DNA of 64,000 nt, taken from NCBI GenBank assembly GCA_964036045.1, contig OZ038392.1, positions 21,416,090 through 21,480,089 of the forward strand, in the 5' to 3' direction. Position numbers and translations under genes: made by a program. The DNA comes from Eutreptiella sp. 'Long Island Sound 2002'. Lineage: Eukaryota; Euglenozoa; Euglenophyceae; Eutreptiales; Eutreptiaceae. Under the pieces are notes generated by a model, which did no database searches, was not told the DNA's origin, and saw only the letters and a list, made by a program, of their open reading frames with translations. Of this stretch, positions 15,752 to 56,655 are shown piece by piece. How positions within the stretch are numbered: the stretch's first letter is position 1; each line of letters opens with the position of its first letter.

Positions 15752-16044
15752 CCCTGTGTGCGCGCAATGGTGCATTTTTTCCATAGTGCGCGCAAATTTT
15801 GAAAAATATGACCTTTGTAGCGCGCCTATTGCGCGCGCTCCACCGCGCTATATTGTCCCGTTTTTCAAGTTTTTCAAAACCTGAAAATGTTTCAAAACCA
15901 TGCTTTTTCCAGTGTCCTGTGTTTCTCAAGAACTCCTTGGTTTTCAAAAACATTCCCTGTTGCTTACCCAACCCAAGACACATGCAAAAACACTTTCTGA
16001 AAGGTCTGAAAAGTGTGCAACACTACAGGTCCTCATGGGCAACA

Positions 16045-16127
16045 ACAATGTAGCGCGCGCAAAATATTTACAGCGCGCGCTATGGATCTTACGGCGCGCG
16101 CTATACCATATATAGTGCGCACTATCA
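16045..16127. repeat. D-family palindromes at the D 3' end
   Basis: TAGCGCGCGCAAAATATT..., CAGCGCGCGCTATGG and GGCGCGCGCTATACC-type units lie just past the acidic exon. More are at about 15.77-15.85 kb. Confidence 0.8.
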
Positions 16128-17129
16128 TCCAGTGATCTCCTTAATGCTTTCGACCACCACTTCGGCCTCCCACTCCTTCTCCCATGCTGGTCTTTGGTCT
16201 TCTGCCCCGGCTGCAGCTGGGGCTGTGTCCCCTTCTTCTTGTGCACTTGGGTCGCCTTCTTGGGTTGCTCCTTCTGGTGCCTCTTCTTCTTTCGGGGCTG
16301 CTCCTTCTCCTTCTGTTGTCTCCCCTTCTTGTGGCGCGGCCGCTGGTGCCTCTTCTTCTTGTGGTGTCAATGGGGCTGGTGCGTCTTCTTCTTGTGCAGC
16401 TGCTGCTGGGGCTGGTGCCTCTTCTTCTTGTGCAGCTGCAGCTGGTGCTTCTGCTTGTGCTGCAGCTTCGGCAGGTCCCTCTCCTTCTTGTGGGGGGGCT
16501 GGTGGCTGGGCTGGTGGGTCTCCTTGGGGCTGCTTCTTCTTTGGGGTTGGTGGCTTTGACGGGGACATCCTCATGGTCTTTGGGTCGGGGGTGAGGTCCA
16601 CAATTTCATCGGGCTCGTACGTCTCCCACCACGACTGCCACTTGTCCAACCCCTCATACGCTTTGCTTTTGGCGGAGAACACCTGGCAGCTGGGCATGAA
16701 CTCCGACCAGTCGTCCTCTTCCTCCTCCTCCTCCCCTTGTAAGCTGGGGCTCCACTGATCGTTGCGGATGATGACGGCCACGTGGTCCTGAGGGGCCCTC
16801 CTAGCCCCTGCTGGCTTGATTTCGGCTCCTTCCACAATCATCGGCGCGATCGCAGTGGTGCAATAGATGATCCACCGGGGCTTGTAGCCGTCTTTGTAGG
16901 ACCAATCTCGGCGCTGCATGAGCTCATCTCTTGCCAGCTTGTCCGTGTTGGCTTTGCTCTCCTGCTTGGCCTTGGGAGCCGTACTGGGTGGGGTGGAACC
17001 GCACGTACCTCCTTGTTCTTGTGGCTGGTCTGGGACTGGGAGCGGCTGCTCCGTTGATGGCTTTGATGCTACCTGCGGCTGCGGTGCCTGCTGTGGTGCC
17101 TTCTTCACGATGGGGCCAGTCTTGCTTGC
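16125..17129 (-). CDS. Last exon of the D downstream gene: acidic, Pro/Ala/Glu-rich tail
   Basis: The exon opens after the acceptor CTTCTCTTTCCAG on minus, in phase 0 with exon e (34366-34929); A lies in the intron between them. It is 334 codons to TGA at 16125. A Pro/Gln-rich start leads to a small globular-looking stretch (KPRWIIYCTTAIAPMIVEGA, then WSPSLQG), an acidic run (EEEEEEDDW) and a Trp-rich piece (DKWQSWWETYEPDEIVDL). About 130 residues of low-complexity Gln-Glu-Glu/Pro-Ala repeat end at WEKEWEAEVVVESI. The disordered acidic tail could be a protein-interaction segment (inference). No family is recognised. Confidence 0.65.
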   Translation of the reverse strand, partial: ASKTGPIVKKAPQQAPQPQVASKPSTEQPLPVPDQPQEQGGTCGSTPPSTAPKAKQESKANTDKLARDELMQRRDWSYKDGYKPRWIIYCTTAIAPMIVEGAEIKPAGARRAPQDHVAVIIRNDQWSPSLQGEEEEEEDDWSEFMPSCQVFSAKSKAYEGLDKWQSWWETYEPDEIVDLTPDPKTMRMSPSKPPTPKKKQPQGDPPAQPPAPPQEGEGPAEAAAQAEAPAAAAQEEEAPAPAAAAQEEDAPAPLTPQEEEAPAAAPQEGETTEGEGAAPKEEEAPEGATQEGDPSAQEEGDTAPAAAGAEDQRPAWEKEWEAEVVVESIKEITG

Positions 17130-17345
17130 CTGGAAAGAGAAGCGTAGAGGCATAGCACGCGCATGGGATGCAGCGTTCTAGGGCGTGGTGCGGAACCCCC
17201 CCAATTTTGGGTGTTGTTAATATGGTTGGAACCCGGAATTTCACATGTTACATGGGTGCACTATGATGCAACAATGTGTCTTGCATTTTTCGTTTGCTCG
17301 GTATTGCCCGTTTTACACTTTTTGCGATTTGATCTTTGTGTGCTC

Positions 17346-17520
17346 TAACTAGTTAGAACGGGGTTAGAACGGGGTTAGAGCACTAGTTATATCACTAGTT
17401 ATATATATATCGCGTGGGTTATCGCGCGATAACCTAGTTATCGCGGGGGTTATCGTGGGGGTTATCGCGCGATAATTAGTTATCGCGTGAGTTATCGCGT
17501 AGGTTATCGCGCTTGATTTT
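17346..17520. repeat. A/B-family palindromes in the 5' intron of A
   Basis: Repeated GTTATCGCGCGATAAC and TCTAACTAGTTAGAACGGGG units. Counterparts in B lie at 48150-48300. The block ends in the acceptor TTCGCTTTAG before the first coding exon. Confidence 0.85.
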
Positions 17521-17568
17521 ATGTTTCCCCTTTTCGCTTTAGCTCTCAAAGCTTTCATATTCTTTGTA

Positions 17569-19267
17569 ATGGCCCTTGCTGCTGCCCACGCTTGGTGCGA
17601 GCACCATCAAAAGCTCCTTGGGGTCCGTCCCCTTGGCGGTCCCGAGGGGTTTACGATGGGTGACGCAAACGTGAGGCGCCCTGTGGCGACTCGCTTTGAA
17701 CGTGGTGTGGACTTTGGACTCCTTGTCCATAAGTCCCCCTTCATGGCCGACCACAGAGACCCCCTTGTTCTCAGCAGCTACATCTTCGAGTTGCTACAGG
17801 TAAATCCAGGGGTTGCTGGATTCTTGATTCAGCTGCATCTCGAGGATGTGGACGCCGTGTTGGAGTCTGTCACCGCCCATGCCGAGAAGGGTGCGGGGAC
17901 AAAGACGACCCTTTATGTGGGTCAGGAGGAAGTGGGGGAAGTGGAGGAGGTGGGGGCTGGGAGGGGGAAGGAGAAGCCCCACAGCCCCCTCATGATTAGT
18001 GTGCACAAGGGAAGGATCCGACCGGGTAAGGGGAAGGGGAAGTCGGATGGATGGTTCCCCCAACCCCTCACCCACAACACTTGCCGGGTCTGCACTGACG
18101 ACCCCGAAAACAAGTTCCTCATGCACTCCTTTTTGGAGCGTGAGTGGTATGCGGTCACCACTCCCAACATTATTTCGGGGCGGGGGGTGATTCTTTTTCC
18201 TTTTGGGGCAACACCCCCCCTTATTGGGGAGGCGGAGGAGGTGGTTGCCGCCGAGCCCTTGCATGGGGGCCTTTAATAGGGATCCCAATGACCTTGTGCT
18301 CACTGTGGGGGGAAGGCTGGTGGTCAACCACCTCCTGGAGCACGATTTTTTGAGTGATGTGCAGCTGCAAAGTCTTTTGGACGATCTGGATAGGGTGCCT
18401 CTCTCAGAGAAGGCACCCATTTTCAATGAGAACCCCCCCATTGTCGGCAGGCCCCAAGATTCTGGGACCCGCCGCACATTGTATGGCAAGTATGGGGGTG
18501 CCAACCACCACAAGCACAAGCCCCACAAGCTCCATGATCTGCCAGTCCTCAAAAGGGTGGCAGATCGTGTGCTGGAGACGGCGAAGAAGACTGTGGTGGG
18601 GGGTGTCGGATGGAGCTGCACCTGGTGGGCGGGTGGCCAAGACAGTCCAGTGTGACGGGGCGGTTAGGTGTAGGGGGAAGGTCGTAGCCAAGTGCTACGG
18701 CTACAACCGGGCGGTTTTGCGCGCCGCCCACAAAGATGGCCTTTGTGTGCCATGCCAGGAGGGGGAGGAGGTGGAGGGGGGGGAGGAGGAGCTAGGTGGT
18801 GGTGGAGGACCCCAATGGGGTCAGCATTGAGCAATCTGCTCAGTGCTAGCACTGAGCAGATTGCTCCTGCTGGGAACAACCACCAGGCATTTTTTGTTGT
18901 CGGGGTGGGGGAATGGGATGGAGGTGATTGCCCCCCTCACTAATGAGGAGGTGGGGGGGGTCGCAGGCCACCCCGATCAGTGCCCCTTGGCCAAGGTGTG
19001 CCATGGGGAGGCACTGCCGTGGCCCTCCCCGCAAGGGCATGTTGGGATTAGGGTGCCGCCGGGCTGCATTTTGGTGGTGAGGAAGGGATTGTATGGAGGA
19101 GTGGCAAGGGTGGCCCCTGAGGTTGAGGGGGTGGCCCAGGTGGTGTGGTGGAGTGGAGGCAAGTCGGGGAGTATGCGGCCGTCACGGACTTCGTGTGGCT
19201 GCGGAGGTTGAACCTGGTGCTGGACGACGCCAAGAAGGAGGGCCAAGGCATGTGCCCATGTCACCAG
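17569..19267 (+). pseudogene. Dioxygenase-like exon of A, catalytic core deleted
   Basis: Starts at ATG 17569 (MALAAAHAWCEHHQKLLG), matching B at 48356. Compared with B, a 4-bp CATG insertion at about 18260 shifts the frame. About 410 bp are then missing at 18619, where the sequence jumps from GAGCTGCACC to TGGTGGGCGGGTGG; in B this span (49437-49847) encodes the HxD motif and distal His. Short direct repeats (GCACC) at the deletion ends in B suggest slippage or microhomology repair. The rest stays alignable to the splice donor CACCAG|GTGTGA at 19267/19268. Confidence 0.85.
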
Positions 19268-19507
19268 GTGTGAAAACTTCCCACAACACCCTGCACTAAC
19301 CCCTGCTCTAACTAGTTATCGCGCTAGGTTATCGCGTTCTAACTAGGTGCTCTAACTAGTTATCGCGCTAGGTTATCGCGTTCTAACTAGTTATCGCGGG
19401 GTTATCGCGGGGGGTTATCGCGGGGGTTATCGCGTTCTAACTAGGTTATCGCGCGAGTTATCGCGGCTGTTATCGCGTGTTTTTTTTTGTTTTTTTGTTT
19501 TTCTCAG
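19268..19507 (+). other. Intron of A with A/B palindromes
   Basis: Donor CAG|GTGTGAAAAC, acceptor TTTTTCTCAG, 240 bp. It is filled with CTAACTAGTTATCGCG units. The B intron (50468-50708) is at the same place and phase. Confidence 0.85.
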
Positions 19508-20350
19508 GCCACCATCCTGCAGCTGCCGCATTTTTTTGCCAAGGACGAAGCCCAGGCGCCAAGGGGGGAAGGCCGGGAAAGCAGACGAAGCGGCGGCTTG
19601 AGGTGGTGGTTGTTGAGGCGGATGCCCCCCCCCCCCCAATAGTGGTAAGGGCCCCACCCCCTCCCCCAAGCCGTGGAAGGTGGCGAAGGTGGCAGCCCAG
19701 CCCCCCCCCCGAGGCCCTGGATGTGGAGGCCTTGGGGGCCAGTGTGGCCACCCACGTGACGGACGCTTGCCAGGTTTTGGTGGAGCAAGCGGCCGCCACG
19801 GGTATTGAGGCCGCACTGGCCAAGGGTCGGTCGGCCGACCACAAGTCGGCCTTGGCGAACGCCGAAAAGGTCCAGGGCAACTCCCAGCGTGCCCTGGACC
19901 AGGCCCTCAACCTTGCCAACAAGAGGGGGGAGGAGGTGGAGGCGATGAGGGGGTCCCTGAGGGAGGCCGAGAAGGGGAGGCGGAAGGCGGAGGTGGAGGC
20001 GCCCTAGCTCAGGGTGGAGGTGGAGGCGCAGCGGAGGAGGGGGGATGACCTCCAGCAGCGCCGGGGGTTTGCTGAGGCGCAGGTGCGCACCCTCGCCTCC
20101 ACATGGTGTAGCATCCAAGTTGTTCGCTCCCAAGGGACGGACACCATGAGCCTTCACGCCCATTTGCGTGATGGGGCGCCCATGGCGCTTATTGTGTGTG
20201 TGGGGTCTTTCACCGGGGGTGATTTTTGGGTGGAGAGTGGTGGTCTGCTGAATCCCTCCCTGAGGGAAAAAAAGCGGCACACCCGTGTGTGCAAGGGTAG
20301 GGCGGTGGAGGGTTGGGCATGCAAGGCCACCCCCAAGCCCCATGTTTCGT
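19508..20350 (+). pseudogene. Coiled-coil exon of A, internally deleted
   Basis: Aligned with B exon 2 from ATI-QLP-FVKDEAQA onward. It keeps the long Ala/Lys/Glu coiled coil (about 19.73-20.09 kb), lacks about 0.4 kb present in B at the start, jumps near 20.10 kb (CCTCCACATGGTGTAGC) past about 0.3 kb of B, and ends near 20.34 kb. Codon 20005-20007 is TAG where B has CAG (51717-51719), and codon 19520-19522 is CAG where B has TAG (50721-50723). A G/C-run frameshift lies near 19.63 kb. Confidence 0.78.
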
Positions 20351-20391
20351 TTGCTCGATATTGCCCGTTTTGCACTTTTTGCGATTTGATC

Positions 20392-21160
20392 TTTGTGTGC
20401 TCTAACTAGTCAGAACGGGGTTAGAACGGGGTCTTTGTGTGCTCTAACTAGTCAGAACGGGGTTAGAACGGGGTCTTTGTGTGCTCTAACTAGTTAGAAC
20501 GGGGTTAGAACGGGGTCTTTGTGTACTCGAACTAGTTAGAACGGGGTTAGAACGGGGTCTTTGTGTGCTCTAACTAGTTAGAACGATGTTAGAACGGGGT
20601 TAGAACGGGGTCTTTGTGTGCTCTAACTAGTTAGAACGGGGTTAGAACGGGGTCTTTGTGTACTCGAACTAGTTAGAACGGGGTTAGAACGGGGTCTTTG
20701 TGTGCTCTAACTAGTTAGAACGATGTTAGAACGGGGTTAGAACGGGGTCTTTGTGTGCTCTAACTAGTTAGAACGGGGTTAGCACGGGGTCTTTGTGTGC
20801 TCGAACTAGTTAGAACAGGGTTAGAACGGGGTCTTTGTGTGCTCTAACTAGTTAGAACGACGTTAGAACGGGGTTAGAACGGGGTCTTTGTGTGCTCTAA
20901 CTAGTTAGAACGGGGTTAGAACGGGGTCTTTGTGTGCTCCAACTAGTTAGAACGGGGTTAGAACGGGGTCTTTGTGTGCTCTAACTAGTTAGAACGGGGT
21001 TAGAACGGGGTCTTTGTGTGCTCTAACTAGTTAGAACGGGGTTAGAACGGGGTCTTTGTGTGCTCTAACTAGTTAGAACAGGGTTAGAACGGGGTTAGAA
21101 CGGGGTCTTTGTGTGCTCTAACTAGTTAGAACGGGGTTAGAACGGGGTTAGAGCACCAGT
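20392..21160 (+). repeat. Tandem array of about 42-bp units
   Basis: About 17 copies of a unit built from TGCTCTAACTAGTTAGAACG followed by GGGTTAGAACGGGGTCTTTG. Some units carry an extra GATGTTAGAACG step, giving a higher-order pattern. The unit itself occurs once at the start of A (17330-17390) and B (48140-48190), so it was expanded here. Confidence 0.92.
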
Positions 21161-21405
21161 TAGTGCGCATGTGCATAGTGCACTAACCTCTGCTCTAACT
21201 AGTTATCGCGGTAGTTATCGCGCTCTAACTGGGTGCTCTAACTAGTTATCGCGGGGGGTTATCGCGTTCTAACTAGTTATCGCGGGGGCTTATCGCGGGG
21301 GTTATCGCGCGATAACCTACTTATCGCGGAGGTTATCGCGTGGGTTATCGCTTGTGTTTTTTGGGCCCTTGCTTCAAAACCCTCCCTCATTTCCTGCCCA
21401 GGCCC
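21161..21405. repeat. A/B-family palindromes before the transposase exon of A
   Basis: Repeats of GTTATCGCG / CGCGATAAC, ending in the acceptor CATTTCCTGCCCAG in front of the A transposase exon. B has the same at 52550-52765. Confidence 0.85.
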
Positions 21406-21418
21406 TCTTATATTCTTC

Positions 21419-21728
21419 ATGGATAATGCTGTTAACGAGGCCCTCAGGGCTCTGAACACAGCTAACCTCCGCCGGTACACTGATTTGCAGTGCCCCAAGG
21501 CCCGGCGACGGCGGTTGAAGGCTGTTCAGCGGCTGGTGCGAGTTCTATTGGGTGATCCGAACATTGCGTGTGGCACCAACACCAAAGGAGAAGTTTGTTT
21601 AAGTGATGGGGCGTGCACTGCCCTGTTTGGCCCACTTGGTGGCCATCTTGCATTCACAGCTCAGGAGCACGAGGTCTGAGCAGGCTACCCATGGCATGCA
21701 GCATGCATCTTTCCCAGCACGCCCTTTT
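21419..21728 (+). pseudogene. Transposase exon of A, 5' part (split by Y)
   Basis: ATG 21419 (MDNAVNEALRALNTANLRRY), near-identical to B from 52780. The coding sequence is cut after GCCCTTTT by element Y and resumes at 33198. A small indel near 21.68 kb already shifts the frame relative to B. Confidence 0.85.
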
Positions 21729-21949
21729 TGTACCCTTCGTGAACCGGCCGTTGGAATCCGAGATTCACGGTACCGTGAATTTCACCTATTTTTGCTGTGT
21801 TTTGCTCGTAACTTGGTGCTATCGTGTGCTTTTGTCGTGCTATCTTCGCCCAAAGTAAGATCCAACAAATGTGTGCAATTTACAGTTTTGAAGTAGCCGC
21901 ATGGTTCAACACATTTGGTGAGATCGCCGTGAATGTAAAATTCACGCAC

Positions 21950-22085
21950 CCAAATTCACGCATAAATTCACGCTAGATTCACAGATTCACGAGAATGTGA
22001 AATTCGCACGAATTTCGTACGAATTCGTACGAATTTCGTACGAATTTCGGGCGAATTTCTTGCGAACTCGTACGAATCGGCCTGA
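21950..22085. repeat. X-family palindromes near the left end of Y
   Basis: TTCACGC units followed by GAAATTCGTACGAATTTC-type units, mirrored at 30215-30340 at the matching end of X. Confidence 0.85.
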
Positions 22086-22089
22086 ATTT

Positions 22090-22860
22090 TGTCTTGTCAC
22101 TGCTATTTGTTGCACACATTGGATATTGAAAAATTTCGTTTTGTAGATCCCTAGATACACGCTAGCAAGCACAATTTCGTTCCAGCCTAAAACGACATCG
22201 CGAGGGCGTTCTACCCTACAACATCTAGCTAGAACGTAGACTAGAACAGGAATCATTCTAGCCTAGATTTGTTCTACACTAGAACACACATACCAAATCA
22301 AACCATTATACACATTACACTTCTTATGCTTTGTTGCGTTGCTCACAAATTTGTTGGGAAGGGCATAGGTTATAGGTGATAGTGGATGCAGTGGTGGGGG
22401 GTCCATTGGGGTCAAACCATTGTTGCATTGCTCACACAGTTGTTGGGAAGGGCAAAGGTGATAGTTGCTAGTAGATGCATGAGGGTGGGCCGGGGGGGTC
22501 CATTGGGTCAAACCATAGGAGCGTAATCAACCACGTCTAGTGTTGGGAGGGGGGGGGGGGGGCAAGGAGACCCCCACTTACACCTGATGTGGGGTTAGGA
22601 GGGTGTCTTGCTTGTTGCAGTGCGGTTAAGGTTAGGGAGGGTACTCCTTTTCTCTTCACAGGTTCTTTCTACTGTTTGATTCTTCGATGTCGGCTCTTCC
22701 AAGCTTCTCGCCTGCAGCTGGGTAGAAGAGTTGGATTGTTCACCCACCAACAGGGATCGTGACACGTGTTCACACGCCATGGGGTAGCAGCATCCGTGTT
22801 CATGGCTCCGTGCGATTGGGTGCATCCAGACCGAGGTATGTTGCGTGTAGTTGTTTCGTG
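22090..22860. other. Y interior, no gene seen
   Basis: Contains a roughly 70-bp duplication (GTTGCTCACA...GTTGGGAAGGGCA at 22330-22370 and 22425-22460) and a G13 run near 22549. No coding frame is supported. Confidence 0.45.
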
Positions 22861-22870
22861 CTGCCACATA

Positions 22871-22871
<1 letters not shown>

Positions 22872-22952
<81 letters not shown>
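22872..22952. repeat. (GT)n microsatellite
   Basis: About 40 uninterrupted GT units, with shorter GT-rich tracts to 23140. Open frames across it encode only Cys-Val or His-Thr repeats and are not genes. Confidence 0.97.
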
Positions 22953-22955
<3 letters not shown>

Positions 22956-23139
22956 CCTCGGGAACTGTGGTGCATGAAATAAGGGGTGGCCCCCCAGTGA
23001 TCGACCAGGGGGGGCGCCAGCCCCCCCGGGAGCTTCTTTGGATATTGCGGTACATGAAAGAAGGGGGGCCCCCCTCCTCTTGTGTGTGTGTGTGTGTGTG
23101 TCTGTGCGGTGTGTGTGTGTGTGTACATTGCTGCACTGT

Positions 23140-23445
23140 ATGTGCGTGTGGGTGCCGGGGGGGCAGGTATAGGGAAATGTGTGTGGGTGTGGGGACTTCG
23201 GTACATGCATAGGTGGTGTTGGTGTGGCTCTTCTGCCAGTGTCCTGCAAAAATGGTCCGAAATTCGTACGAAGTTCGCACGAAATTCGTACGAAATTCGT
23301 GCGAATTTCGTACGAATTTCGTACGAATTTCGTCCCTCAAGTACCGTGAATACGTACCGTGAATGTGGTTGTTACGAATTTTGTACGAATTTCGTACCAA
23401 ATTCGTACGAATTTCGTACGAATTTCGCACGAAGTTCAAACAATT
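23140..23445. repeat. Left arm of Y's internal inverted duplication, with X palindromes
   Basis: The stretch with ATAGGTGGTGTTGGTGTGGC and TGTCCTGCAAAAATGG recurs inverted at 31289-31337, with the AATTCGTACG cluster on the inner side in each case. X separates the two arms. Confidence 0.8.
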
Positions 23446-24006
23446 TGCATGAATTTGTGTCATTTTTGTGTGTGTGTGGGTGTGCCTGGTCGGAGGGGTT
23501 GTTGTTTGTGTGGGCGTGGGGGCATGGTGTGCGTGCCTGGGTGATATGTGTGTACCCTTCGTGAACGGCCGTTAAGTGGCCGTTTGAATAATTGCGTGAA
23601 TTTCACGTGAATTTACCCAAATTTTGAGGTTTTTGGGGGAAAATGCCATATTCTTGGTTCATTTCAAGGGCTTTGAGGGGCCAAAATTCCTCCCCTAGCT
23701 TTGTTACGCATCATCCAATGAAAGTCCCGCCCCAAAAGCATGCATCATGACCGCACCGTGCCCAAAACGAGAGGTGCCGGAACCCGGCAAGCCTGTAGCC
23801 GATTCACGGCCGTGAATTCACGTGAATTCGTACGAAATTCGTACGAAATTCGTACGAATTTCGTATGAATTTCACGTGAATTCACGTGATTTTACACAAA
23901 TGTTACCGGTGTGCACCCCCTGATTTGTCCTCACACCCCTAGTAAGCCCCCCAGCATGCACCCCGGTCACAGGCATGCTACAATGGTCTGGGTTCGTAAG
24001 GTGATC

Positions 24007-25770
24007 TCATGTCCGTCTCTTGCGGCACCGGAACCGCCGCTGTAGAGTCTGAAGGTGCTGCATGTCGGTTAGGAGCCGTCTTCGTGTGCGGCTTGCATAC
24101 GTTTGTACACTTATGGGCCCTTGCCCATGTTGATCTCTCTTGGTCGCATCCCACCCATGCAACCAAAGGCTATCGTCAATGGTGTGGTTGTCCACAACCA
24201 CTTGCACCCCTATTCTCCCCCGGAGGAGGCTTAGGCCCCCGCTGTTGCGCAACATGCGCTTCAGCCTCCGGTGACTTCCCTCCATGGCAAAGCAGGAGAA
24301 CTTTGACAAGATTCTCCACTTCTTTGCAAAATAATACATGTGGTGGATCCAAAGATGCGTCCACAGAAGTTTGCCCCACTGGAGCTCATTGTCGGCAGCG
24401 CCCATGGCTATGCTATGGTTCCGGAGCCGCCCCAAGTCGGCCCCGGAGAACCATGCGGAACGCCACGCGTATACACACATGCTTGCAAAATTCTCCCACC
24501 ACGTTTTGCACACCGACTCCCAACTTTTTCCCCCTACTTGATGCTGCCTCACACTAGGCTGCTCTAGGCAAGCATCTATTATCTTCTCCCAACCCCTATT
24601 CCGCATGAAATGGATGGCAGCAGCACACTCCATCCTCACCTTCCCCTTGCTGTTTGCCTTGTCATTATTTAATGAGGCACGGGTGCAAGTTCGTGCAGCA
24701 AGCCGTGCCTCATCTAGAACCGGTTGCAGCATGGTGCGTGCCACAGTGGCCGGTGCCTTCCCTGTCAATTGTACAACTAGGTCCCGTGTCCCGTTGACTG
24801 CACACAACAGGACACGAAGGACCCCATGGAGGCCATAATCAGGCACTCGCCTATCACCCGTAATGGTCCTATATATAGCATTTATGGCAACGGCTGGTTC
24901 CCAGTTGCCGTCTATCGCACTTGCTGTGCCAAAGGTAGCAAGGCGCAGAGCACGGTTACACATGCAGACCCAACACACAGTGGCACCAGGGGATTCTGCC
25001 TTCCAGTTTTGGCAGCCCGCCATGAGCACCTGTGCCTTACCATCTGCACACAGAAAAAAAAGGGACTGCCTATCGTTCCCTGCCGTATCCTTAAAACTTA
25101 CGGTTGCGGCCTTGCGCAACTCATCATCAAAATCAATTTCCTGGGAGGCCGCGTAGAGGGTCTCCCACTTTTCACTGCCCCCTAGTAGCCACCAACTAGA
25201 TAGTTGGTTGGGGCTGGCGGTGCCACCAAGCGTGCAATGGACGTAAGAGGCCTCATGCCTCGATGTACCGTCCACCGCAATGGGCAACCAATGCAGCCGT
25301 CGGTCCCCGGGCTGCATGATGGCCGAGGGTGGGGGTGGTCGACACTTGAATAGGTGGCCGATGCGGTCAGGTAGGTAGCAGGCCGCACCATTGATGGCCG
25401 TGTCGTCACCCGTATAGGCAGTGAACGCCCGGGACTCCGGCAACGCTAGCTGCCGAAGCATGCCGTACACCTGGTCCCATACCACACCGTACGTCATGCT
25501 CCCCACTAGGTACCGGGACTCCGTCCTAGAGAGGTGCAATGACCGGATCCTCCAGACGGCCATGATCAACCTCTCCTCCTGGGTGGGCTCGGGCTGGACG
25601 GTGGCTACAATTCTTGTTTCGGGGGTAAGCACTATTTGCCCCGTGTCGGGCAGGTACTTGACGGTGTAGGGTGCTGCAAGCTCCTTGGTAACAACCTCCT
25701 GGAGCTCTTGTAGGCGCCGCCGTCGTGTACGATCCGCTAGCAGATGGAATGGCTCCTTGGGCCGTGGCAT
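24007..25770 (-). CDS. Transposase-like protein of X (587 aa)
   Basis: Full-length, same length as the X' protein with scattered substitutions. Start ATG 25770 lies just downstream of the acceptor CATTCTACAG; stop is TGA. Candidate DDE residues are as in X': VDGTSRHEAS, CADGKAQVL and AMEGSHRRLKR, with CWVC and DYGLHG between. The open frame, despite flanking decayed elements, suggests recent activity or recent acquisition (inference). A gene upstream on the same strand (coiled coil) ends about 0.65 kb away across a palindrome-filled spacer, so the two may be spliced together or transcribed separately. Confidence 0.8.
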   Translation of the reverse strand: MPRPKEPFHLLADRTRRRRLQELQEVVTKELAAPYTVKYLPDTGQIVLTPETRIVATVQPEPTQEERLIMAVWRIRSLHLSRTESRYLVGSMTYGVVWDQVYGMLRQLALPESRAFTAYTGDDTAINGAACYLPDRIGHLFKCRPPPPSAIMQPGDRRLHWLPIAVDGTSRHEASYVHCTLGGTASPNQLSSWWLLGGSEKWETLYAASQEIDFDDELRKAATVSFKDTAGNDRQSLFFLCADGKAQVLMAGCQNWKAESPGATVCWVCMCNRALRLATFGTASAIDGNWEPAVAINAIYRTITGDRRVPDYGLHGVLRVLLCAVNGTRDLVVQLTGKAPATVARTMLQPVLDEARLAARTCTRASLNNDKANSKGKVRMECAAAIHFMRNRGWEKIIDACLEQPSVRQHQVGGKSWESVCKTWWENFASMCVYAWRSAWFSGADLGRLRNHSIAMGAADNELQWGKLLWTHLWIHHMYYFAKKWRILSKFSCFAMEGSHRRLKRMLRNSGGLSLLRGRIGVQVVVDNHTIDDSLWLHGWDATKRDQHGQGPISVQTYASRTRRRLLTDMQHLQTLQRRFRCRKRRT

Positions 25771-25859
25771 GGTGTGAGATACAAGACCTGTAGAATGGGG
25801 AGGCAGTCATCGCAAAGTTTCTACCATCCCCCTCCCGCAGACAACTCTCTCAACTGTGA

Positions 25860-31399: not shown

Positions 31400-31440
<41 letters not shown>

Positions 31441-47441: not shown

Positions 47442-47465
47442 GCAGGCACTGCACGTCGACATGGC

Positions 47466-47660: not shown

Positions 47661-47761
47661 CAACTGTGTGCCAACTGTGTGCCAACGTGCACCAACCTTC
47701 CGTTGTATGATCCAACCCGCCTGCCACGTCCTCACGTGCCGCAGGTCTTTGTTTGTGCACC

Positions 47762-47969: not shown

Positions 47970-48149
47970 TGGGATGCAGCGTTCTAGGGCATGGTGCGGA
48001 ACCCCCCCAATTTTGGGTGTTGTTAATATGGTTGGAACCCGGAATTTCACATGTTACATGGGTGCACTTTGATGCAACAATGTGCCTTCCATGTTTCGTT
48101 TGCTCGATATTGCCCGTTTTGCACTTTTTGCGATTTGATCTTTTTGTGC

Positions 48150-48300
48150 TCTAACTAGTTAGAACGGGGTTAGAACGGGGTTAGAGCACTAGTTATCGCG
48201 GGCCTTATCGCGCGATAACCTAGTTATCGCGGGGGTTATCGCGGGGGTTATCGCGCGATAACTAGTTATTGCGCGAGTTATCGCGTAGGTTATCACGCTT
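48150..48300. repeat. A/B-family palindromes, 5' intron of B
   Basis: TCTAACTAGTTAGAACGGGG followed by GTTATCGCGCGATAAC units, ending at acceptor TTTTCGCTCTAG (48328). Confidence 0.88.
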
Positions 48301-48355
48301 CATTTTATGTTTCCCCTTTTCGCTCTAGCTCTCAAAGCCTTCGTATTCTTTGATA

Positions 48356-50467
48356 ATGGCCCTTGCTGCTGCCCACGCTTGGTGCGAGCACCATCAAAAG
48401 CTCCTTGGGGTCCGTCGCCTTGGCGGTCCTGAGGGGTTTACGATGGGTGACGCAAACGTGAGGCGCCCTGTGGCGACTCGCTTTGAACATGGTGCGGACT
48501 TTGGACTCCTTGTCCATAAGTCCCCCTTCATGGCCGACAAGAGAGACCCCCTGGTTCTCAGCAACTACATCTTCGAGTTGCTAGAGGTAAATCCAGGGGT
48601 TGCTGGATTCCTCATCCAGCTGCATCCCGAGGACGTGGACGCCGTATTGGAGTCCGTCACCGCCCATGCCGAGAAGGGTGCGGGGACGAAGACGACCCTT
48701 TATGTGGGTCAGGAGGAAGAGGAGGAAGTGGAGGAGGAAGTAGAGGAGGTGGAGGAGGTGGGGGCTGGGAAGGGGAAGCCCCACAACCCCCTCATGATTA
48801 GTGCCCAAAGGGTAAGGATCCGACCTGGTAAGGGGAAGGGGAAGTCAGATGGTTGGTTCCCCCAACCCCTCAGGCACAACACCCGCCGGGTCTGCAGTGA
48901 CGACCCCAAAAACAAGCTCCCCATGCACTCCATTTGCCCCACAAGGGAGTGGGAGCGTGAGTGGTATGGGGTCACCACCCCCAACATTATTTCGGGGCAG
49001 GGGGTGATTCTCTTTCCATTTGGGGCAACTCCCCCCCTTATTGGGGAGGCGGAGGAGGTGGTTGCCGCCGAGCCCTTGGGGGCCTTTAATAGGGACCCCA
49101 ATGACCTTGTGCTCACGGTGGGGGGAAAGCTGGTGGTCAACCACCTCTTGGAACACGATTTTTTGACTGATGTGCAGCTGCAAAGTCTTTTGGATGATTT
49201 GGATAGGGTGCCTCTCTCAGAGAAGGCACCCATTTTCAATGAGAACCCCCCCATTGTCGGCAGGCCCCAAGATTCTGGGACCCGCCGCACATTGTATGGC
49301 AACTATGGGGGTGCCAACCACCACAAGCACAACCCCCACAAGCTCCATGATCTGCCAGTCCTCAAAAGGGTGGCAGATCGTGTGCTCGAGACGGCGAAGA
49401 AGACTGTGGTGGGGGGGGTTGGATGGAGCTGCACCATCCTTGAAATGGCCGAAATTTCGAGCTATGACCACACCCCCCAACACCTCCATTGCGACGCCCC
49501 CCCCTACACCATTCCTGAAGGCACATTGATTGTCAATTGCCTTATTATGCTAACCCATAATCATGAGGAAGAGGATGGGTCACATTTTCTTTTTGTGCCC
49601 TCCAGTAGTTCGGGGTTCCCTGACCCTTGGGTGGAGAGGGCTGTGCCATTCCAGAGGGGCACTGCCTTTTTTTTTAATGCCCTTGATGTCCACCGGGGGT
49701 CGGGGATTCCCAAGGCCTCCCCCACGGGGGTGAGGGACCCCCGCCTCATGGCATTTTTTGCCATTGAGCTAACCCAGGGGGGGAATCTTCGATTCCCCAA
49801 CCTGCACGTGACACAGTCCATTAAAAGGCCCCAGCTGGGGGCACCTGGTGGCCGGGTGGCCAAGACAGTCCAGTGTGATGGGGCGGTTAGGTGTAGGGGG
49901 AAGGTGGTAGCCAATTGCTACGGATGCAATTGGCTGATTTTGTGCACCGCCCACAAAGATGGCCTTTGTTTGCCATGCCAGGAGGGCGAGGAGGCGGAGG
50001 GGGGGAAGGAGGAGGAGGTGGTGGAGGACCCCAATGGGGTCAGCATTGAGCAATCTGCTCAGTGCTTGCTCCCGGTGGGAACAACCAGCGGCCTTTTTTT
50101 GTTGTCGGGGTGGGGGAATGGGAGGGAGGTGATTGCCCCCCTCACTAATGAGGAGGCGGGGGGGGTCGCAGGCCACCCCGATCAGTGCCCCTTGGCCAAG
50201 GTGTGCCATGGGGAGGCACTGCCCTGGCCCTCCCTGCAAGGGCATGTTGGGATTAGGGTGCCGCCAGGGTGCATTTTGGTGGTGAGGAGGGGATTGTATG
50301 GAGGAGTGGCGAGGGTGGCCCCTGAGGTGGAGGGGGTGGCCCAGGTGGTGGAGTGGAGGCAAGTGGGGGAGTATGCGGCCGTCACGGACTTCGTGTGGCT
50401 GCGGAGGATGAACCTGGTGCTGGACGACGCCAAGAAGGAGGGCCAAGGCATGTGCCCATGTCACCAG
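48356..50467 (+). CDS. Exon 1 of B: 2OG-Fe(II) dioxygenase-like protein
   Basis: 704 codons from ATG 48356 (MALAAAHAWCEHHQKLLG) to the splice donor CACCAG|GTGTGA. The TGA seen right after is inside the intron. The N-terminal half includes a poly-Glu run and FNRDPNDLVLTVGGKLVVNH. The catalytic part has QHLHCDAPPY (His378, Asp380), a hydrophobic strand (GTLIVNCLIMLTHNH), distal His446 in DVHRGSGIP and Arg463 in DPRLMAFFAIE, a full HxD...H...R set. A Cys-rich region (CDGAVRCRGKVVANCYGC) and a second beta-rich region end in CPCHQ. The substrate is unknown; an RNA or DNA base is an inference from the setting. A carries a copy without the catalytic core. Confidence 0.75.
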
Positions 50468-50708
50468 GTGTGAAAACTTCCCACAACACCCTGCACTAAC
50501 CCCTGCTCTAACTAGTTATCGCGCTAGGTTATCGCGTTCTAACTAGGTGCTCTAACTAGTTATCGCGCTAGGTTATCGCGTTCTAACTAGTTATCGCGGG
50601 GTTATCGCGGGGGGTTATCGCGGGGGTTATCGCGCGATAACCTAGTTATCGCGGGGGTTATCGCGCGGGTTATCGCGTGTTTTTTTTTGTTTCTTTTATT
50701 TTTTTCAG
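50468..50708 (+). other. Intron of B, filled with A/B palindromes
   Basis: Donor CAG|GTGTGAAAAC, acceptor TTTATTTTTTTCAG, 241 bp, phase 0. Contains CTAACTAGTTATCGCG and GTTATCGCGCGATAAC units. Homologous in place to the introns of C and X. Confidence 0.87.
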
Positions 50709-52538
50709 GCTACCATCATGTAGCTGCCCCGTCTCTTCGTCAAGGACGAAGCCCAGGCAGCCGAGGCAGCAGGAGGAGCAGCAGAAGTAGCAGGGGCACG
50801 GCCCGCCAAGCCGGTGGCGGGCCGTGTGGAGCTGGAGGGGGAGAAGAGGCTGCCGGAGGGGGCGTCGTGCCGGTGGGGGGAGCCTGGGGATGAGGCCTGC
50901 AGGATGGGGGGGACGGGATGGTACCGGCAGGTCACCATCACCGAGAAGGAGGGGGGTGTGGAGAGGAAGACCAACCTCACCCTCCCCTCCTATGTGTGGG
51001 TTGGGGGGGAAACGGCCAAGTGGCCGAATGCCACAGAGGGGGAAACGGTTGCGGCTTTTTTGTGTTTGTTTGGGATGAGCGACCCCCCCCAAAGGAAATC
51101 TTATTTCCTTTTGAGGGTGTGTTTTTTGTGGGAGGGGGAGTACACTGGGAGGGAAGTGTGGCAGAAGCTGCACAGGGGGGGGGGCATCCACCAGGTTGGT
51201 GGGTATCACCCCCCCCCTTCTGTGGTGGACGCCACTGCCGAATGGATTCGGCAGTATGCACCCAAGGGGGGAAGGCCGGGAAAGCAGACGAAGCGGGGAC
51301 CTGACGTGGTGGTGGTTGAGCCGGATGCCCCCCCCCCCCTTAAGGGTAAGGGCCAAACCCCCGCCCCCAAGCCCTCCCCCAAGCCGTCGAAGGTGGCGAA
51401 GGTGGCGGCCCAGCCCCCCCTTGAGGCCCTTGATGTGGAGGCCTTGGGGGCCAGTGTGGCCACCCACGTGACGGACGCTTGCCAGGTTTTGGTGGAGCAG
51501 GCGGCCGCCACGGGGGTCGAGGCCGCACTGGCCAAGGGTCGGTTGGCCGACCACAAGTCGGCCTTGGCGAAGGCCGAAAAGGTCCAGGGCAACACCCAGC
51601 GTGCCTTGGACCAGGCCCTCAACCTGGCCGCCAAGAGGGGGGAGGAGGTGGAGCCGATGAGGAAGGCCCTGAGGGACGCCCAGGAGGGGAGGCGGAAGGC
51701 GGAGGTGGAGGCGGCCCAGCTGAGGGTGGAGGTGAAGGGGCAGCGGAGGAGGGGGGATGACGTCCAGCAGCGTCTGGGGGTGGCTGAGGCGCAGGTGCGC
51801 AGCCTCACCTCCACCCTCAGTGCCTCCTTCACCGCCCAGCAGGGGCTGGAGCCGCAAGGGGTGCAGAGTCAGGGTAGCGGGAGTAGGAGTGGGAGTCAAT
51901 GCCTCGTGGGTTTGCTAAGGGGGTTGCCTAAGGGCATTTTTCGTGGGGAGGAGCGATATGGGGCCCAAGTGGACATGTGCCACTTCGGCCTCGTGGGAAG
52001 TGGAAACCCCAACCCCTCTAATTTTAGGGCGACCCACATGGCCGCTGCTACCCTGAGGCCTGCCCTCACCCCCTTGGTTGCAGACCTCAATGCGTATTGC
52101 ACCTCCAATGCTCCACCATGGTTCACATGGTGTAGCATCCAAGTTGTTCGCCCCCAAGGGACGGACACCATGGGCCTTCACGCCCATTTGCGTGATGGGG
52201 CGCCCATGGCGCTTATTGTGTGTGTGGGGTCTTTCACGGGGGGTTATTTTTGGGTGGAGAGTGGTGGCCTACTGAATCCCTCCCTGAGGGAAAAAAAGCG
52301 GCACACCCGTGTGTGCAAGGGTAGGGCGGTGGAGGGTTGGGCATGCACCGCCACCCCCCAAGCCCCGGTGTTGTTCAACACCAGGGCACTACACGCTCCA
52401 TTGCCATGGGAGGGCGAGCGATGGAGCCAGATTTTTTACAGTGCGGGGGGGGTGCTGCAGTGCACGCCTCTGTGGCGGCAGCAGCTGGTGTCCATGGGTT
52501 TTAGGGTGCCCAATGCTTGCTCTAACCCCACCAATTAG
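50709..52538 (+). CDS. Exon 2 of B: coiled coil plus second oxygenase-like domain
   Basis: Opens ATIM-TAG-LPRLFVKDEAQA; the TAG (50721-50723) is CAG in A. A folded stretch (WYRQVTITEKEGGVERKTNL, then GWVG/CLFGMSDPPQRKSYF region) precedes a Pro/Lys linker and a coiled coil (51.55-51.80 kb, KVQGNTQRALDQALNLAAKR). The last 200 residues resemble another double-stranded beta-helix oxygenase: TWCSIQVVRP, GLHAHLRDG (an HxH where HxD is usual), GSFTGGYFWVE, and NTRALHAPLPWEGERWSQIF with His and Arg. TET/JBP-like families have this order, but I cannot prove membership. The end may be spliced before 52538. Confidence 0.65.
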
Positions 52539-52549
52539 TGCGCACTAAC

Positions 52550-52765
52550 CCCTGCTCTAACTAGTTATCGCGGTAGTTATCGCGCACTAACTGGGTGCTC
52601 TAACTAGTTATCGTGGGGGGTTATCGCGTTCTAACTAGTTATCGCGGGGGGTTATCGCGGGGGTTATCGCGCGATAACCTAGTTATCGCGGGGGTTATCG
52701 CGTGGGTTATCGCGTGTGTTTTTTGGGCCCTTGCTTCAAAACGCTCCCTCATTTCCTGCCCAGGC
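52550..52765. repeat. A/B-family palindromes before the transposase exon of B
   Basis: GTTATCGCG / CGCGATAAC units, ending with acceptor CATTTCCTGCCCAG at 52764. Confidence 0.87.
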
Positions 52766-52779
52766 CCTCTTATTCTTCA

Positions 52780-54439
52780 TGGATAATGCTGTCAATGAGG
52801 CCCTGAGGGCTCTCAACACAGCTAACCTCCGGCGGTACACCGATCTGCAGTGCCCCAAGGCCCGGCGGCGGCGTTTGAAGGCGGTTCAGCGGCTAGTGCG
52901 AGTTCTATTGGGTGACCCGAACGTTGTGTGTGGCACCAACACCAAAGGAGAAGTTTGTTTAAGTGGTGGGGCGTGCACTGCCCTGTCTGGCCCACTTGGT
53001 GGCCATCTTGCATTAACAGCTCAGGAGCATGAGGCCCTGAGCATGCTACACATGGCATGCAGCATGCATCTCTCCCAACGGGCCCTTTTGCGAATGCCCC
53101 GCCGTTGCACACAACGGGACCTAAGGACCGTTCGGCAACGGATCATGCCCTACTTTCCCCAAACAACCATTGTAAAGTCTACCACAAGCCGCAATAGGGC
53201 AGCTGCCCATGTGCCTTTGCAATCAATTGTGCAAAATGAAATATCAATGGCCCGAGTTATTGGGAAACCCCCCCCTAGTGGCGTTGCCATTGTTGTTATT
53301 TCAGTTGATGCGACTTCCTTGTGGAAGGCATCCTCCACCCGTGCGGATGTATGGGTTAATGTATGGGGGGGGGGCAAAGTATGCTTCGAAGGTGAAGCTA
53401 TGGGCCTCATGGTTTTTCATGGATGGCGGAGATTAATAGGCTTTTTTGAGAAGCCTGGACATCTCCGCCAACCTCAACCAAGAGGTGAGGGATGTGGAGG
53501 AGGACGCTGTCCTCTTTCAAAATCAATTTTTGACTTGCACTGTCATTTTGACAGGGGATGGGAAGGGGATGCAAGCAATGGGGGGGGGCTGGGTCTAAGT
53601 GTTGGTTGTGCAAAGACCCCAATGGTATTGTTGAGCAAAGGGGGGTGGAGTCCACCTCAAGATGGGGGGCATTCTTGAGAAGTGTGACCCCTGATAGGCG
53701 GCCGGGGGACTACCAACATGCAGCATGCCGCATCCTAAACGGCATTGCAAAGCGCATTGAGACCACCCTTCAGGCCCTCCCCCCTGGTACCCCTGGTAAG
53801 GCCCAAGCTCTTGCAGCTTTGCAGGCTTTCAAACAAGCCCTCAAGGATGAGACCTCAGGCATCCCTCTGAGGGAACGTCTCCCTTCGGCCTCAAGGGCCA
53901 CAGAAAAAGATTTCGATCTAACAAGCACCAAATTTTTCCTAACCCCCCCCCCCTTCCAAAGGCAATTTGTGGATTGCCTCAAAGATCATGTCCCCACAGT
54001 GAGGACCCCTGGGGGACCTTTGTTATGGGTTGTTGTGCATGTCATGGTGAAATGCATTGAGGGTTTGTATGAGCTTTGGAGGGTGAGGGAGATGTACACT
54101 CTAACCCAAGTGGAACGCCACCGTGCGTTGACCACCAAATTTTCAAAAGCGTGGGGAGACTCAGGTTGGTCCCCCACGAGGTGGATCCATTGGTGCTTGG
54201 CACATTCAACCTTTTTTGCCGAGAAATGGAGGAACATTTCTCAGTTTTCCTCCATCCCAACGGAGTATCGGCATGGGCCTTACAAGAGGAGGCCCAAAAA
54301 TTGTTTTAAGGGTTGGTCTTTGGTGAGGCCAAGTATGTCCCTCCGCCACATGCACCATTGCATGTCCATGAACGCCCTGGAGCAAGGGCTTTTGGGACCG
54401 GAGGCAGCCAAGGCCTCAGACATTGATGACTTTGTATGA
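52780..54439 (+). CDS. Transposase-like protein of B (frame changes at G runs)
   Basis: ATG 52780 (MDNAVNEALRALNTANLRRY), 15 bases after the acceptor, to TGA 54439. Motif order is as in X: VISVDATSLWKAS, ILTGDGKGMQAMGG, KCWLCKDPNG, PGDYQHAACRILNG and TEYRHGPYKRR (candidate Glu). The frame is broken at a G10 run (53365-53374) and a G9 run (53580-53588), and TAA TAG occur at 53434-53439 where A has GAA CAG. Allowing for the homopolymers and TAR as Gln, the coding sequence is whole. Either the gene is dead or the tracts are miscounted. Confidence 0.7.
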
Positions 54440-54507
54440 AAAACGACCACACATGCTTTGTGCCAAGTGTTTTGTGTTGTTTGTCCTAGGGAGGGAGGGA
54501 GGAGGGG

Positions 54508-54590
54508 TGCGCGATAACTACACGCGATAACTACGCGATAACTGAGTTATCGCGCGATAACTAGAGCGATAACTAGTTAGAGCAAGGTGC
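54508..54590. repeat. A/B-family palindromes at the right end of B
   Basis: CGCGATAACT and TTATCGCGCGATAAC units just downstream of the transposase, followed by about 0.24 kb without a gene up to the terminal repeat. Confidence 0.87.
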
Positions 54591-54833
54591 TCTAATTGTG
54601 TTCTAACTCTGTTCTAACTGTGCTCTAACTTTTTGACCCCCCCCAAAAAAAACCACCCCTACAATGAGGGTCATGTGGGGAAAGAAAGGGGATGGGGGGT
54701 TTCTGAGGGTGCTGAATCCATTTTTTTAGGCGGTTTGCCCCAAAATTGAGGGTAGGTGGGTGTTCCAAAAATTGCGTTCTAACTAGGGGTTCTGCACCAC
54801 GCCCTAGAACGCTGCATCCCAGGAGAGCTGCAA

Positions 54834-56288
54834 AAATGGCGACAGCTTCCGCAAACTGCAGTACAGCCGGGCCCACAGCCAATGGAAGTGCCCATGGGGA
54901 AGCCTGATGCAGGTGCGAAAGGCATTGTCCGCCCCCCGTGTCACGGATGTCCATTTTCAGACGGACGAGGACAATGACATTTTTGGGGCCGCATGCAATC
55001 TGTGGCAGAAACTGCAGGTATTTTCACCCTGCACCAAAGCGTTTCCCGGCGACCGTTCACGGTTCACGGTGACCCGTTACACACGGCCTGTTTTCTGGCA
55101 CAGGTGATGTGGCACCGTGACGGCCCCACGTTCCTGACGGACAACGTGTGGGTGGGCATCTCCTTCGACGGGACAAAGCTCTGGCAGGCCTCCTTCGTGC
55201 ATTTTGCCGTTGGAGACCTGGGGAGTCATATGCCCTTGGGCTCTTGGATCTTGGTCTGCGGATCCGAGAAGAAGGCCATCATTACCCAATTGGCCGAGGT
55301 CTATGACCTCAACGCGGACCTCATCGAGGTGGCGCAGCAGCAAATCCCCGATAAAGGGGGCTACCTGCGTAAGGTGATTTCTTTTTTTATAGAAGACACC
55401 AAGGCGCAGGTCATTTCGGGGGGTTGCTCCTTTTTTTTTTTTTTTTTTTTTGTAAAACAAGTCCAAACTCACTGCTCGAGAGTCCTCAGGAGGCCAGCCC
55501 ATCATACAACGTAACACCCACATCCCAGGTCACGGTCAGTGGGTGGGGCAGTAGGGAGGAGAAAGGAGCCGTGGTGCAGAATGGTTGCTCCTCGTTCACA
55601 GCCAAAAACCCCGCAGCCACTGTTTGTTGGCTGTGTGGGAAGAATCGGGCAACCATTCTGCACGAATTTGGTTGCGGGATGGGGGTGATTGTCGAGGAGT
55701 GGCTCTGGGCAGGGATGATATGCCCGATCGTGCGCCCCCCCCCCGGCGGCCCCCCGATTATGGGCTGCATGGCGTGCACCGGCAAGTGCACAATGGGCTT
55801 TCAGCCCTCGTGAACAGCCTCCACACGTTGCATCGGTGGAAGAGGGGAAAGGCCGTGAGGTGGGTGCAATGGTTCTTGGATCCCATTCGGATCCAGGCAC
55901 GGACCGCCACCGGTGTGGCGTCGGAAGAGGAGAGGAAGGATAAGAAGAAGGTGCCCCTGAAAATCGAGCAGACGGCGGCTGCAGAGTGGGTGAAGAGAGA
56001 GGGATGGGACACCATGTGTGACCATCTGGAGGGGGAGCGCCTCCTGCAGCATGTCGTTGACATGGGGGGGGTCCAGGTGTCCTGGACGGACGACTTCCGG
56101 CAATGGGGAAAATCCCTGTTGGCAACAAGCGATGTCGTCTGGAAATCCGGACCGTTGCAGTTGCCCGACTCCACAATGTATACTACATCGGGAGGCACAT
56201 CTCTTGCACATTGTTTTACACATTCTTTTGCACATTCCTAAAAAAAAGATGGAACAATGCTTTCTTCGTGCCAAGTGTGCAAGGGCAG
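54834..56288 (+). pseudogene. Transposase of C, 3' part
   Basis: Continues after B (ESCKNGDSFRKLQYS). A small intron 55018-55103 (donor CTGCAG|GTATTT, acceptor TTCTGGCACAG) joins NLWQKLQ to VMWHRDG. Motifs are ISFDGTKLWQAS, FIEDTKAQVISGG, then (after the SINE-like insertion) TVCWLCGKNRA and DYGLHGVHRQV. A C run near 55735 and a change near 56.1 kb shift the frame. The helix with FLKKRWNNAFF matches X, but the Glu motif is gone: after a donor-like GCAG|GTGAGG (56288) only palindromes remain. So C cannot encode a full enzyme. Confidence 0.75.
55432..55582 (-). mobile_element. SINE-like retroposed insertion with 10-bp duplication
   Basis: A T21 run (55431-55451) opens a 151-bp insert that is an A-tailed sequence on the minus strand. 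GGTTGCTCCT flanks both sides (55422-55431 and 55583-55592). Removing it joins KAQVISGGC to SSFTAKNPAATVCW in frame, matching KAQVLMAGCQNWKAESPGA of X. I see no clear tRNA-type promoter box, so SINE or processed RNA both remain possible. Confidence 0.82.
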
Positions 56289-56353
56289 GTGAGGGACGGA
56301 ATTTCCAGTGACAACAATAGTGTGCAAGTCGATGGTTGGATCGGTGGGGGGAC

Positions 56354-56425
56354 ATTTGGCGCGCGCCAACTTGACAGTTGGCGCACGCCAAGTCCGGACT
56401 TGGCGCACCAACTTGTGAATTTGCG
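56354..56425. repeat. C-family palindromes near the right end of C
   Basis: TTGGCGCGCGCCAACTTGAC, GTTGGCGCACGCCAAG and a decayed third unit. Confidence 0.88.
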
Positions 56426-56655
56426 CGAGCCCAGGCCCGGGAAGCCAACTTTGGCACTTTTTTACCGTGTAGGAGTGTTTTCAGCACGAGAGGGGCGTGA
56501 AACCCGGGGTTTTTCAGGGTAAAAAGTTTCCATTTACACCAAAAAGGAGGGAAAAATCCCTAGGTAGCCAGTGTAACAACATAATAGACACCCGCCATGA
56601 TTTGGCTGCATTCCGAAGCAAGTTGGCGAATGTCTCTTGGCTTCGTAGTTACATC

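Follow-up and report, generated by a model that had tools for sequence, protein, structure and literature searches.

Short motifs that are private to one transposon family and serve its own recognition are not without precedent. In the VANDAL/VANC system of Arabidopsis, as presented in the sections of PMC5735166 and PMC10398659 cited here, family-specific arrays of a short motif lie in introns and in intergenic and terminal non-coding DNA, the tandem repeats turn over rapidly, and related proteins have different targets; VANC21 acts on arrays of YAGTATTAY in the introns, spacers and ends of VANDAL21, lowering methylation (PMC5735166). In CACTA/EnSpm elements, the element-encoded DNA-binding protein TNPA of Spm/En binds subterminal repeats that differ between CACTA families, and non-autonomous copies keep these cis sites (PMC2613891, in the part cited). 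Fungal transposons that encode TET/JBP enzymes place a dioxygenase gene beside the transposase gene, an arrangement proposed to allow escape from methylation-based silencing (Kojima 2025, PMC12730594, in its abstract, sections 3.1.5 and 4.2 and further passages). The window analysed here is a stretch of 64,000 nucleotides from Eutreptiella sp. 'Long Island Sound 2002' (assembly GCA_964036045.1, contig OZ038392.1, positions 21,416,090 to 21,480,089) and contains nested DNA transposons of the families X/Y, A/B, C and D, each of which carries arrays of its own short CpG-containing palindrome, or word. These arrays are real, family-specific, found genome-wide and probably functional.

Comparison with described systems

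As in VANDAL/VANC, family-specific motif arrays occupy introns (predicted in the present case), spacers and termini, and the rapid turnover of repeats and the different targets of related proteins are counted as a further likeness. The VANC21 motif, however, is not palindromic and lies in one orientation, whereas the words found here are CpG-containing palindromes; no enzyme is named in sections 7-9 of PMC5735166, whereas the present elements encode a dioxygenase-like protein. The hypomethylation is that system's, while the present elements are known from sequence alone. The family-differing subterminal repeats of CACTA/EnSpm, and the retention of cis sites by non-autonomous copies, are likewise found here, with a putative counterpart of TNPA, and the transposases share C(2)C and Hx4H with CMCT members, in which both precede E (PMC12730594, in section 3.1.5). 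In place of the 3-bp target-site duplication (TSD) and CAC...GTG ends of CACTA/EnSpm, the present elements have a 2-bp TSD and ends TGTACCC, TGGGATG or TGTAACT; no Pfam transposase family was matched, the motif is palindromic, and arrays are internal as well as subterminal.

Like the fungal TET/JBP transposons, the present elements pair a transposase with a dioxygenase-like gene, though one for which Pfam gave no TET/JBP match. The main text of PMC12730594 contains "palindrom" once, for gene borders, and neither "subterminal" nor "CpG", and the parts of it cited above describe no motif arrays; section 4.2 puts forward, as speculation, a lack of target specificity for the enzymes in one mushroom group, which is why an addressed enzyme would be noteworthy. 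The present elements combine the TNPA and VANC layouts and add a dioxygenase-like enzyme. The initial annotation, which knew of no described transposon group with such a feature, put this too strongly, since VANDAL/VANC arrays and the subterminal repeats of CACTA elements come close to it in function; the novelty is in the palindromic words together with an encoded enzyme, self-recognition by an element itself having precedent. The open-access literature, judged by titles and abstract openings, yielded no account of dioxygenase-bearing transposons with palindromic arrays.

Each family carries its own palindrome

Four exact palindromes, AATTCGTACGAATT, GTTATCGCGCGATAAC, TTGGCGCGCGCCAA and TAGCGCGCGCTA, occur 12, 6, 12 and 6 times in the window, where maximal palindromes of at least 14 bases number 74 against about 4.7 in local dinucleotide shuffles (roughly sixteen-fold). 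When each family's core motif was counted by element territory, 185 of 186 copies lay inside their own family (X 43/43, A/B 69/69, C 46/47, D 27/27); a looser 7-base form of the C motif fell outside arrays in 5 of 52 cases, all of them singles. Half-sites per cluster number 3/6/7/3 in X, 8/11/10/5 in A and 8/12/10/5 in B, and C has 7/9/9/3 units, one mismatch being present in 7 of the 28. Across the 2.28 Gb assembly, exact palindromes were counted with the same palindrome reversed as control, giving 3662 against 1 for X, 5029 against 0 for A/B, 4684 against 1 for C and 1477 against 19 for D.

Twelve 10-kb X loci were fetched from the genome; in eight of them (L036, L043, L044 and L045 were left out, and L035 has an internal deletion), 128 X motifs lie in 54,791 bp of element DNA and none in 25,209 bp of flank, with one C-type core inside the element DNA. 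The number of motifs varies from 1 to 12 per cluster among X copies. Nine places bearing the X palindrome (L001-L004 and L049-L053, a non-random choice from the positions listed for the first part of contig C1) all lie in X/Y-related DNA after the arrays are masked, several of the flanks being only 68-77% identical; because an exact match to the palindrome was what selected these places, the presence of the word in them does not count as independent evidence. The original proposal that each family has palindromes of its own, dense in its own elements, is thus borne out by the window tally and the genome counts: the words far outnumber their reversed controls, and at the sampled X places they track their family. 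Every word holds one to three CpG, but the CpG core described earlier does not hold throughout, the central dinucleotide being TA in X and GC in both the short C form and E.

Seven words are seen in this one genome, those of families W, E and F having been found outside the window; the F word, AGTGAGCGCTCACT, is known from one locus (L043), where it lies about 254-316 bp inward from the end of a new element. Clusters of CCACATGTGG (L023 and L042) were rejected as a further family, as in L042 they form part of a satellite and the word has no CpG. This satellite, of about 90 bp, occupies L042:1100-1690 and adjoins the end of an X copy. Other repeats were seen in the same elements: a second X palindrome, TTCACGTGAA, with one CpG, recurs in 10-bp steps beside array 4, at 2880-2975 of the window and, in many X loci, close to the right end; A holds a 38-bp perfect palindrome at 18829-18866, unlike its family word, and, at 20400-21150, a minisatellite of mostly 42-bp steps with palindrome TCTAACTAGTTAGA, which was not observed at the matching position of B.

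One layout, different words

X, B and C follow a common plan that runs from array 1 through a dioxygenase-like exon, intron 1 with array 2, a coiled-coil region, array 3 and the transposase to array 4 (Table 1); introns and splice sites are predicted and were placed by eye, and several window copies of the compared elements contain stops or frameshifts. Intron 1, with GT...AG borders and phase 0, lies just past the CxC motif that ends the dioxygenase exon at six loci (X, A, B, C, W and E), where it holds five words: TTCGTACGAA in X, TTATCGCG(CGATAA) in A/B, TTGGCGCG(CG)CCAA in C, TTCGCGCGAA in W and GTATACGGCCGTATAC in E. Family W was found through a 44%-identical dioxygenase, and family E was met by chance beside an X copy (L037). 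The junction falls between CPCDCK and V in X, CPCHQ and A in both A and B, CSCSEK and V in C, CPCECE and E in W (L047) and CICNQ and V in E (L037); stop codons occur near it in B, four codons past the junction, and in E, one upstream of the junction. Equivalence of the intron is supported directly by alignment for X and W only, and by motif, phase and gene order for the others. The words of X and W share a frame of 11 bp but not the central dinucleotide, a pair that looks like a word caught while changing. The claim that families keep an intron position while exchanging its array word therefore stands, at these six loci; the wider statement that palindromes fill every intron holds for intron 1 of X, A, B, C, W and E and for one D transposase intron, further introns being possible elsewhere, for instance in the X coiled-coil region.

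The position of arrays in predicted introns, upstream of predicted splice acceptors, raises the question as to whether they act at the level of RNA, the palindromic introns folding into hairpins that control splicing or retention. Arrays, however, are also present close to the two ends, past the stop codon of the transposase and in Y, the apparently non-coding partner of X described below, and their spacing keeps step with the DNA helix in C, in E and, for the most part, in X; such a role is thus very improbable. Since arrays lie near both ends and in Y, the intron-marking system that was first suggested as one possibility is also the less likely one. At the six places examined, array 1 or 3 lies upstream of a predicted splice acceptor that is itself 15-34 nt before the ATG. 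This placement before coding blocks would suit promoters or boundaries that host factors recognise, with a transcription unit opened by each array. Host factors would be expected to read one word, whereas seven occur in this genome and the four of the window keep to their own families, so that this explanation has little probability.

Spacing of the palindromes

In C, all 24 adjacent palindrome gaps measure 20-22 bp while the spacer sequence varies, and the long (14) and short (12) palindromes have identical centre spacing. Period fits were made on the gaps among positions listed for contig C1, with a jitter null for C and X and none for D. The best period is 10.64 bp for C (31 gaps, score 0.85, reached in 0 of 20,000 jittered sets) and 10.8 bp for X (12 gaps, score 0.69, 19 of 20,000). 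The gaps of E are 21, 21, 21, 21, 21, 33, 22 and 21, 22, 35 bp, eight of the ten being 21-22 bp. Over twelve X loci, 161 of 196 gaps equal 11 bp, and 22 block-to-block gaps of 52, 53 or 64 bp lie near whole turns of 10.6 and are not multiples of 11. Spacing thus agrees with the helix in C and E and for the most part in X, only loosely so in D, and not in A/B; helix phasing speaks for a DNA-bound protein, with A/B as the exception.

Neutral minisatellites, expanding by slippage in non-coding DNA, would account for the variable motif numbers of X clusters and for the mostly simple 11-bp tandems of X. Slippage sits badly with C palindromes that are kept while their spacers vary, with a single layout across families that have different words, and with genome counts 78 to several thousand times those of the reversed control, and we give it almost no credence.

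Element ends and a non-coding partner

The distance from tip to array in X, measured in contig orientation, is 273-277 bp at the left end of seven of eight loci and at the right end of six of eight; L042 and L041 have no array at one end, and the right end of L040, inexactly matched, gives 285 bp. Corresponding distances are 223/261 bp in B, 229/242 bp in C and 255 bp at the left of A. The TSD is 2 bp in all ten X/Y copies with both ends found (X and Y of the window; L029, L035, L037, L038, L039, L041, L042 and L046), and A, B and C are flanked by CA, GG and TC, read by eye.

At a threshold of E <= 1e-5, the similarity of Y to X is confined to array DNA and to the two ends of Y, 315 bp at the start (93%) and 399 bp at the finish (91%). 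Y has four arrays, and the outer two are separated from the element tips by 274 and 276 bp; its longest open frames measure 332, 258 and 248 aa, and pieces of it recur at about 92% in L001 and L003. The assignment of Y to a family with X holds in so far as Y bears X-type arrays, with the qualification that it is an apparently non-coding partner. As Y keeps ends and arrays though apparently non-coding, it provides the best single argument for arrays that act in cis.

The same observations bear on the possibility that the arrays are purely transposition sites, bound by the transposase complex only, with internal arrays as extra or decoy dosage sites and the dioxygenase acting elsewhere or everywhere. 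The nearly uniform distance, about 274 bp, to the two X ends, which by eye differ past the first 16 bases, and the retention of ends and arrays in Y would fit it, as would the binding of family-variable subterminal repeats by TNPA (PMC2613891, in the part cited). Yet the two internal arrays are at least as large as the terminal ones and are placed before coding blocks, where transposition alone would not need them, and we consider it unlikely.

Encoded proteins

Comparison among 14 protein pieces of the window, for which E-values are lenient because the set is small, links the transposases of C and X (35% over 93 residues, E 1.7e-14; 33% over 136, E 2.9e-9) and of B and X (39% over 54 residues, E 4e-7), and the dioxygenases of C and X (34% over 61 residues, E 1.3e-9). 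The best match of the D transposase has E 0.056, for which reason D is kept apart from X, B and C; its place in the same superfamily is not clear. The X transposase has CWVC at 267, HLWIHH at 473 and EGSH at 498, and that of B has CWLC, HWCLAH and EYRH. Because C(2)C and H(4)H precede E, both are called CMCT-like, although the EnSpm 3-bp duplication and CAC ends are absent and X matches no Pfam model; the catalytic D and E were assigned by eye, and the C and D pieces have no full CMCT residue set.

Comparison of ten window proteins with Pfam gave no usable family and no TET/JBP match, and that of 17 transposase relatives gave no relevant family; no VANC or VANDAL-transposase Pfam domain appeared among the ten (E <= 1) or the 17, no direct comparison having been made. 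Searches of the transposase against PDB sequences and with Foldseek gave nothing usable, its structure model (pLDDT 51) being too poor, and no relatives of the X transposase were found in IMG/VR; a large protein collection returned relatives, all without names. By eye, the C-terminal part of the second B exon (window 52020-52530) resembles a second dioxygenase-type domain (GGYFWVE...ALHAPLPWEGERWSQIFY), with no Pfam match.

A proposed role for the arrays

A cis-recognition code private to each family, as the initial annotation had put forward, is well supported as a reading of these sequences by family specificity, genome enrichment, a constant layout with different words, retention in the apparently non-coding Y and helix-phased spacing in several families. 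It is likely that the words are recognised by an element-encoded protein. The best overall explanation, in which we have somewhat more confidence than doubt, is that each word marks docking sites for an element-encoded protein and also targets an enzyme. The arrays would be docking sites for a sequence-specific protein, one word per family; those about 220-370 bp from both ends probably aid assembly of the transposase complex, and those in front of each coding block probably attract that protein, or a companion of it, keeping transcription units open. The likeliest job of the internal arrays would be recruitment of the dioxygenase, because the element encodes a dioxygenase-like/coiled-coil protein and every word has CpG: the enzyme would be brought to the DNA of its own family, where methylated CpG would be oxidised and silencing lifted, there and nowhere else. 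This dioxygenase-linked anti-silencing is the bolder step, and we would put its chances a little short of even. We infer that a protein binds the arrays, which protein this would be, and that the dioxygenase acts at them.

CpG transitions are relevant to this step. Among 12 X sequences, CpG changes faster than other C/G by transition in coding DNA (1.18% against 0.57%) and in other non-coding DNA (1.14% against 0.67%), an excess expected if CpG is methylated; inside X arrays it does not (1.64% against 2.78%, on about 16 and 12 changes in poorly aligned arrays). Demethylated arrays would give such a pattern, and we take it as a hint.

The last comparison, on such counts, also belongs with several results that weigh against the proposed role. 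The dioxygenase assignment rests on motifs recognised by eye and one weak Pfam match in B (PF13640, E 0.098), X having none; the structure model of the X dioxygenase is poor (pLDDT 32); and the B dioxygenase exon matches neither X nor C at E <= 1 among the 14 pieces, so that its equivalence is argued from HxD...H, gene order and the intron. The element proteins showed no recognisable DNA-binding domain. The right array of A is only 34 bp from the end of the element, which we read as a deletion. As to helical phase, the X gaps of 103 and 176 bp fit the 10.8-bp period poorly, and the block-to-block gaps of X represent few independent events because the copies are related (about 95% identical); D gives a period of 10.58 (score 0.69) on loosely defined palindrome centres; and helical phase was rejected for A/B, where half-sites lie at 12-13 and 18-19 bp, the 10.5-bp score is 0.44 and the best period is 6.17.

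Elements and neighbouring repeats in the window

Insertions are nested, D being interrupted by A, A by Y and Y by X, and separately C by B (Table 1). Continuity of D across A would follow from the D arrays on both sides.

Table 1. Positions of the transposons and of their arrays, introns and coding regions in the 64,000-nt window.
Feature	Position	Strand	Remarks
X element, full length, nested in Y	23551..30535	-	7.0 kb; ends TGTACCC...GGGTACA; TSD 2 bp, TG
X array 1, subterminal, upstream of dioxygenase ATG	30221..30262	-	
X exon 1, 2OG-Fe(II) dioxygenase-like (HTD...H), 640 codons	28231..30150	-	motif by eye
X intron 1, GT-AG, phase 0, after CPCDCK	27938..28230	-	predicted; array 2 at 28044-28172
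X coiled-coil-like second coding region	26440..27937	-	not one open frame in window copy
X array 3, upstream of transposase ATG	25891..26020	-	
X transposase (CWVC, Hx4H, EGSH)	24007..25770	-	
X array 4, subterminal	23827..23859	-	
Y, apparently non-coding	21729..33195	+	4482 bp with X removed; four X-type arrays; X-like ends; TSD TT
X copy 1, cut by window edge	1..3233	+	arrays ~748-887, 2915-2946
A element, interrupted by Y (21729-33195)	17164..34290	+	arrays ~17419-17511, 19316-19477, 21203-21340, 34194-34256; right end shortened
A intron 1, phase 0, after CPCHQ	19268..19507	+	predicted; holds array 2
B element	47970..54821	+	36-bp inverted ends; TSD GG; arrays ~48193-48285, 50516-50677, 52565-52714, 54510-54560
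B intron 1, phase 0, after CPCHQ	50468..50708	+	predicted; holds array 2
C element, interrupted by B	43109..56653	+	ends TGTAACTACGAAGCCAA; TSD TC; arrays ~43339-43476, 45872-46055, 47467-47652, 56356-56411
C intron 1, phase 0, after CSCSEK	45818..46202	+	predicted; holds array 2
D element, ends uncertain	15752..38740	-	TAGCGCGCGC-type arrays at many places
D transposase intron, 113 nt, phase 2	38181..38293	-	predicted; filled by D array
Second D copy, partial	8056..10100	-	arrays ~8056-8130, 9559-9650, 10021-10095

Other repeats were recognised by eye around these elements. A Penelope-like retroelement at 58033-62525 has a GIY-YIG-like stretch (RIYIGQTGG) upstream of its reverse transcriptase, an order that presumably recalls the Chlamys type of algae and protists, and a second reverse-transcriptase-like frame at 11734-13536 resembles it. 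A Gypsy-type gag-pol-like frame of 1369 aa lies on the minus strand at 3174-7283, beside the end of X copy 1. To the left of C, at 41913-42337, there is a tandem repeat of about 49 bp in eight copies.

Implications

If this explanation is true, these elements would represent a separate invention of sequence-specific transposon anti-silencing with a built-in enzyme. More tentatively still than the anti-silencing step itself, they may form a transposon lineage with modular, sequence-addressed self-marking, in which each family has its own CpG palindrome and its own dioxygenase-coiled coil protein editing modified cytosine only there, while word and reader change together and families coexist without cross-help. 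Seven words in one genome, five of them in an equivalent intron, would provide a natural series on the joint change of specificity and target, and the readers, should their binding be as predicted, would count as new DNA-modifying proteins that are addressable.

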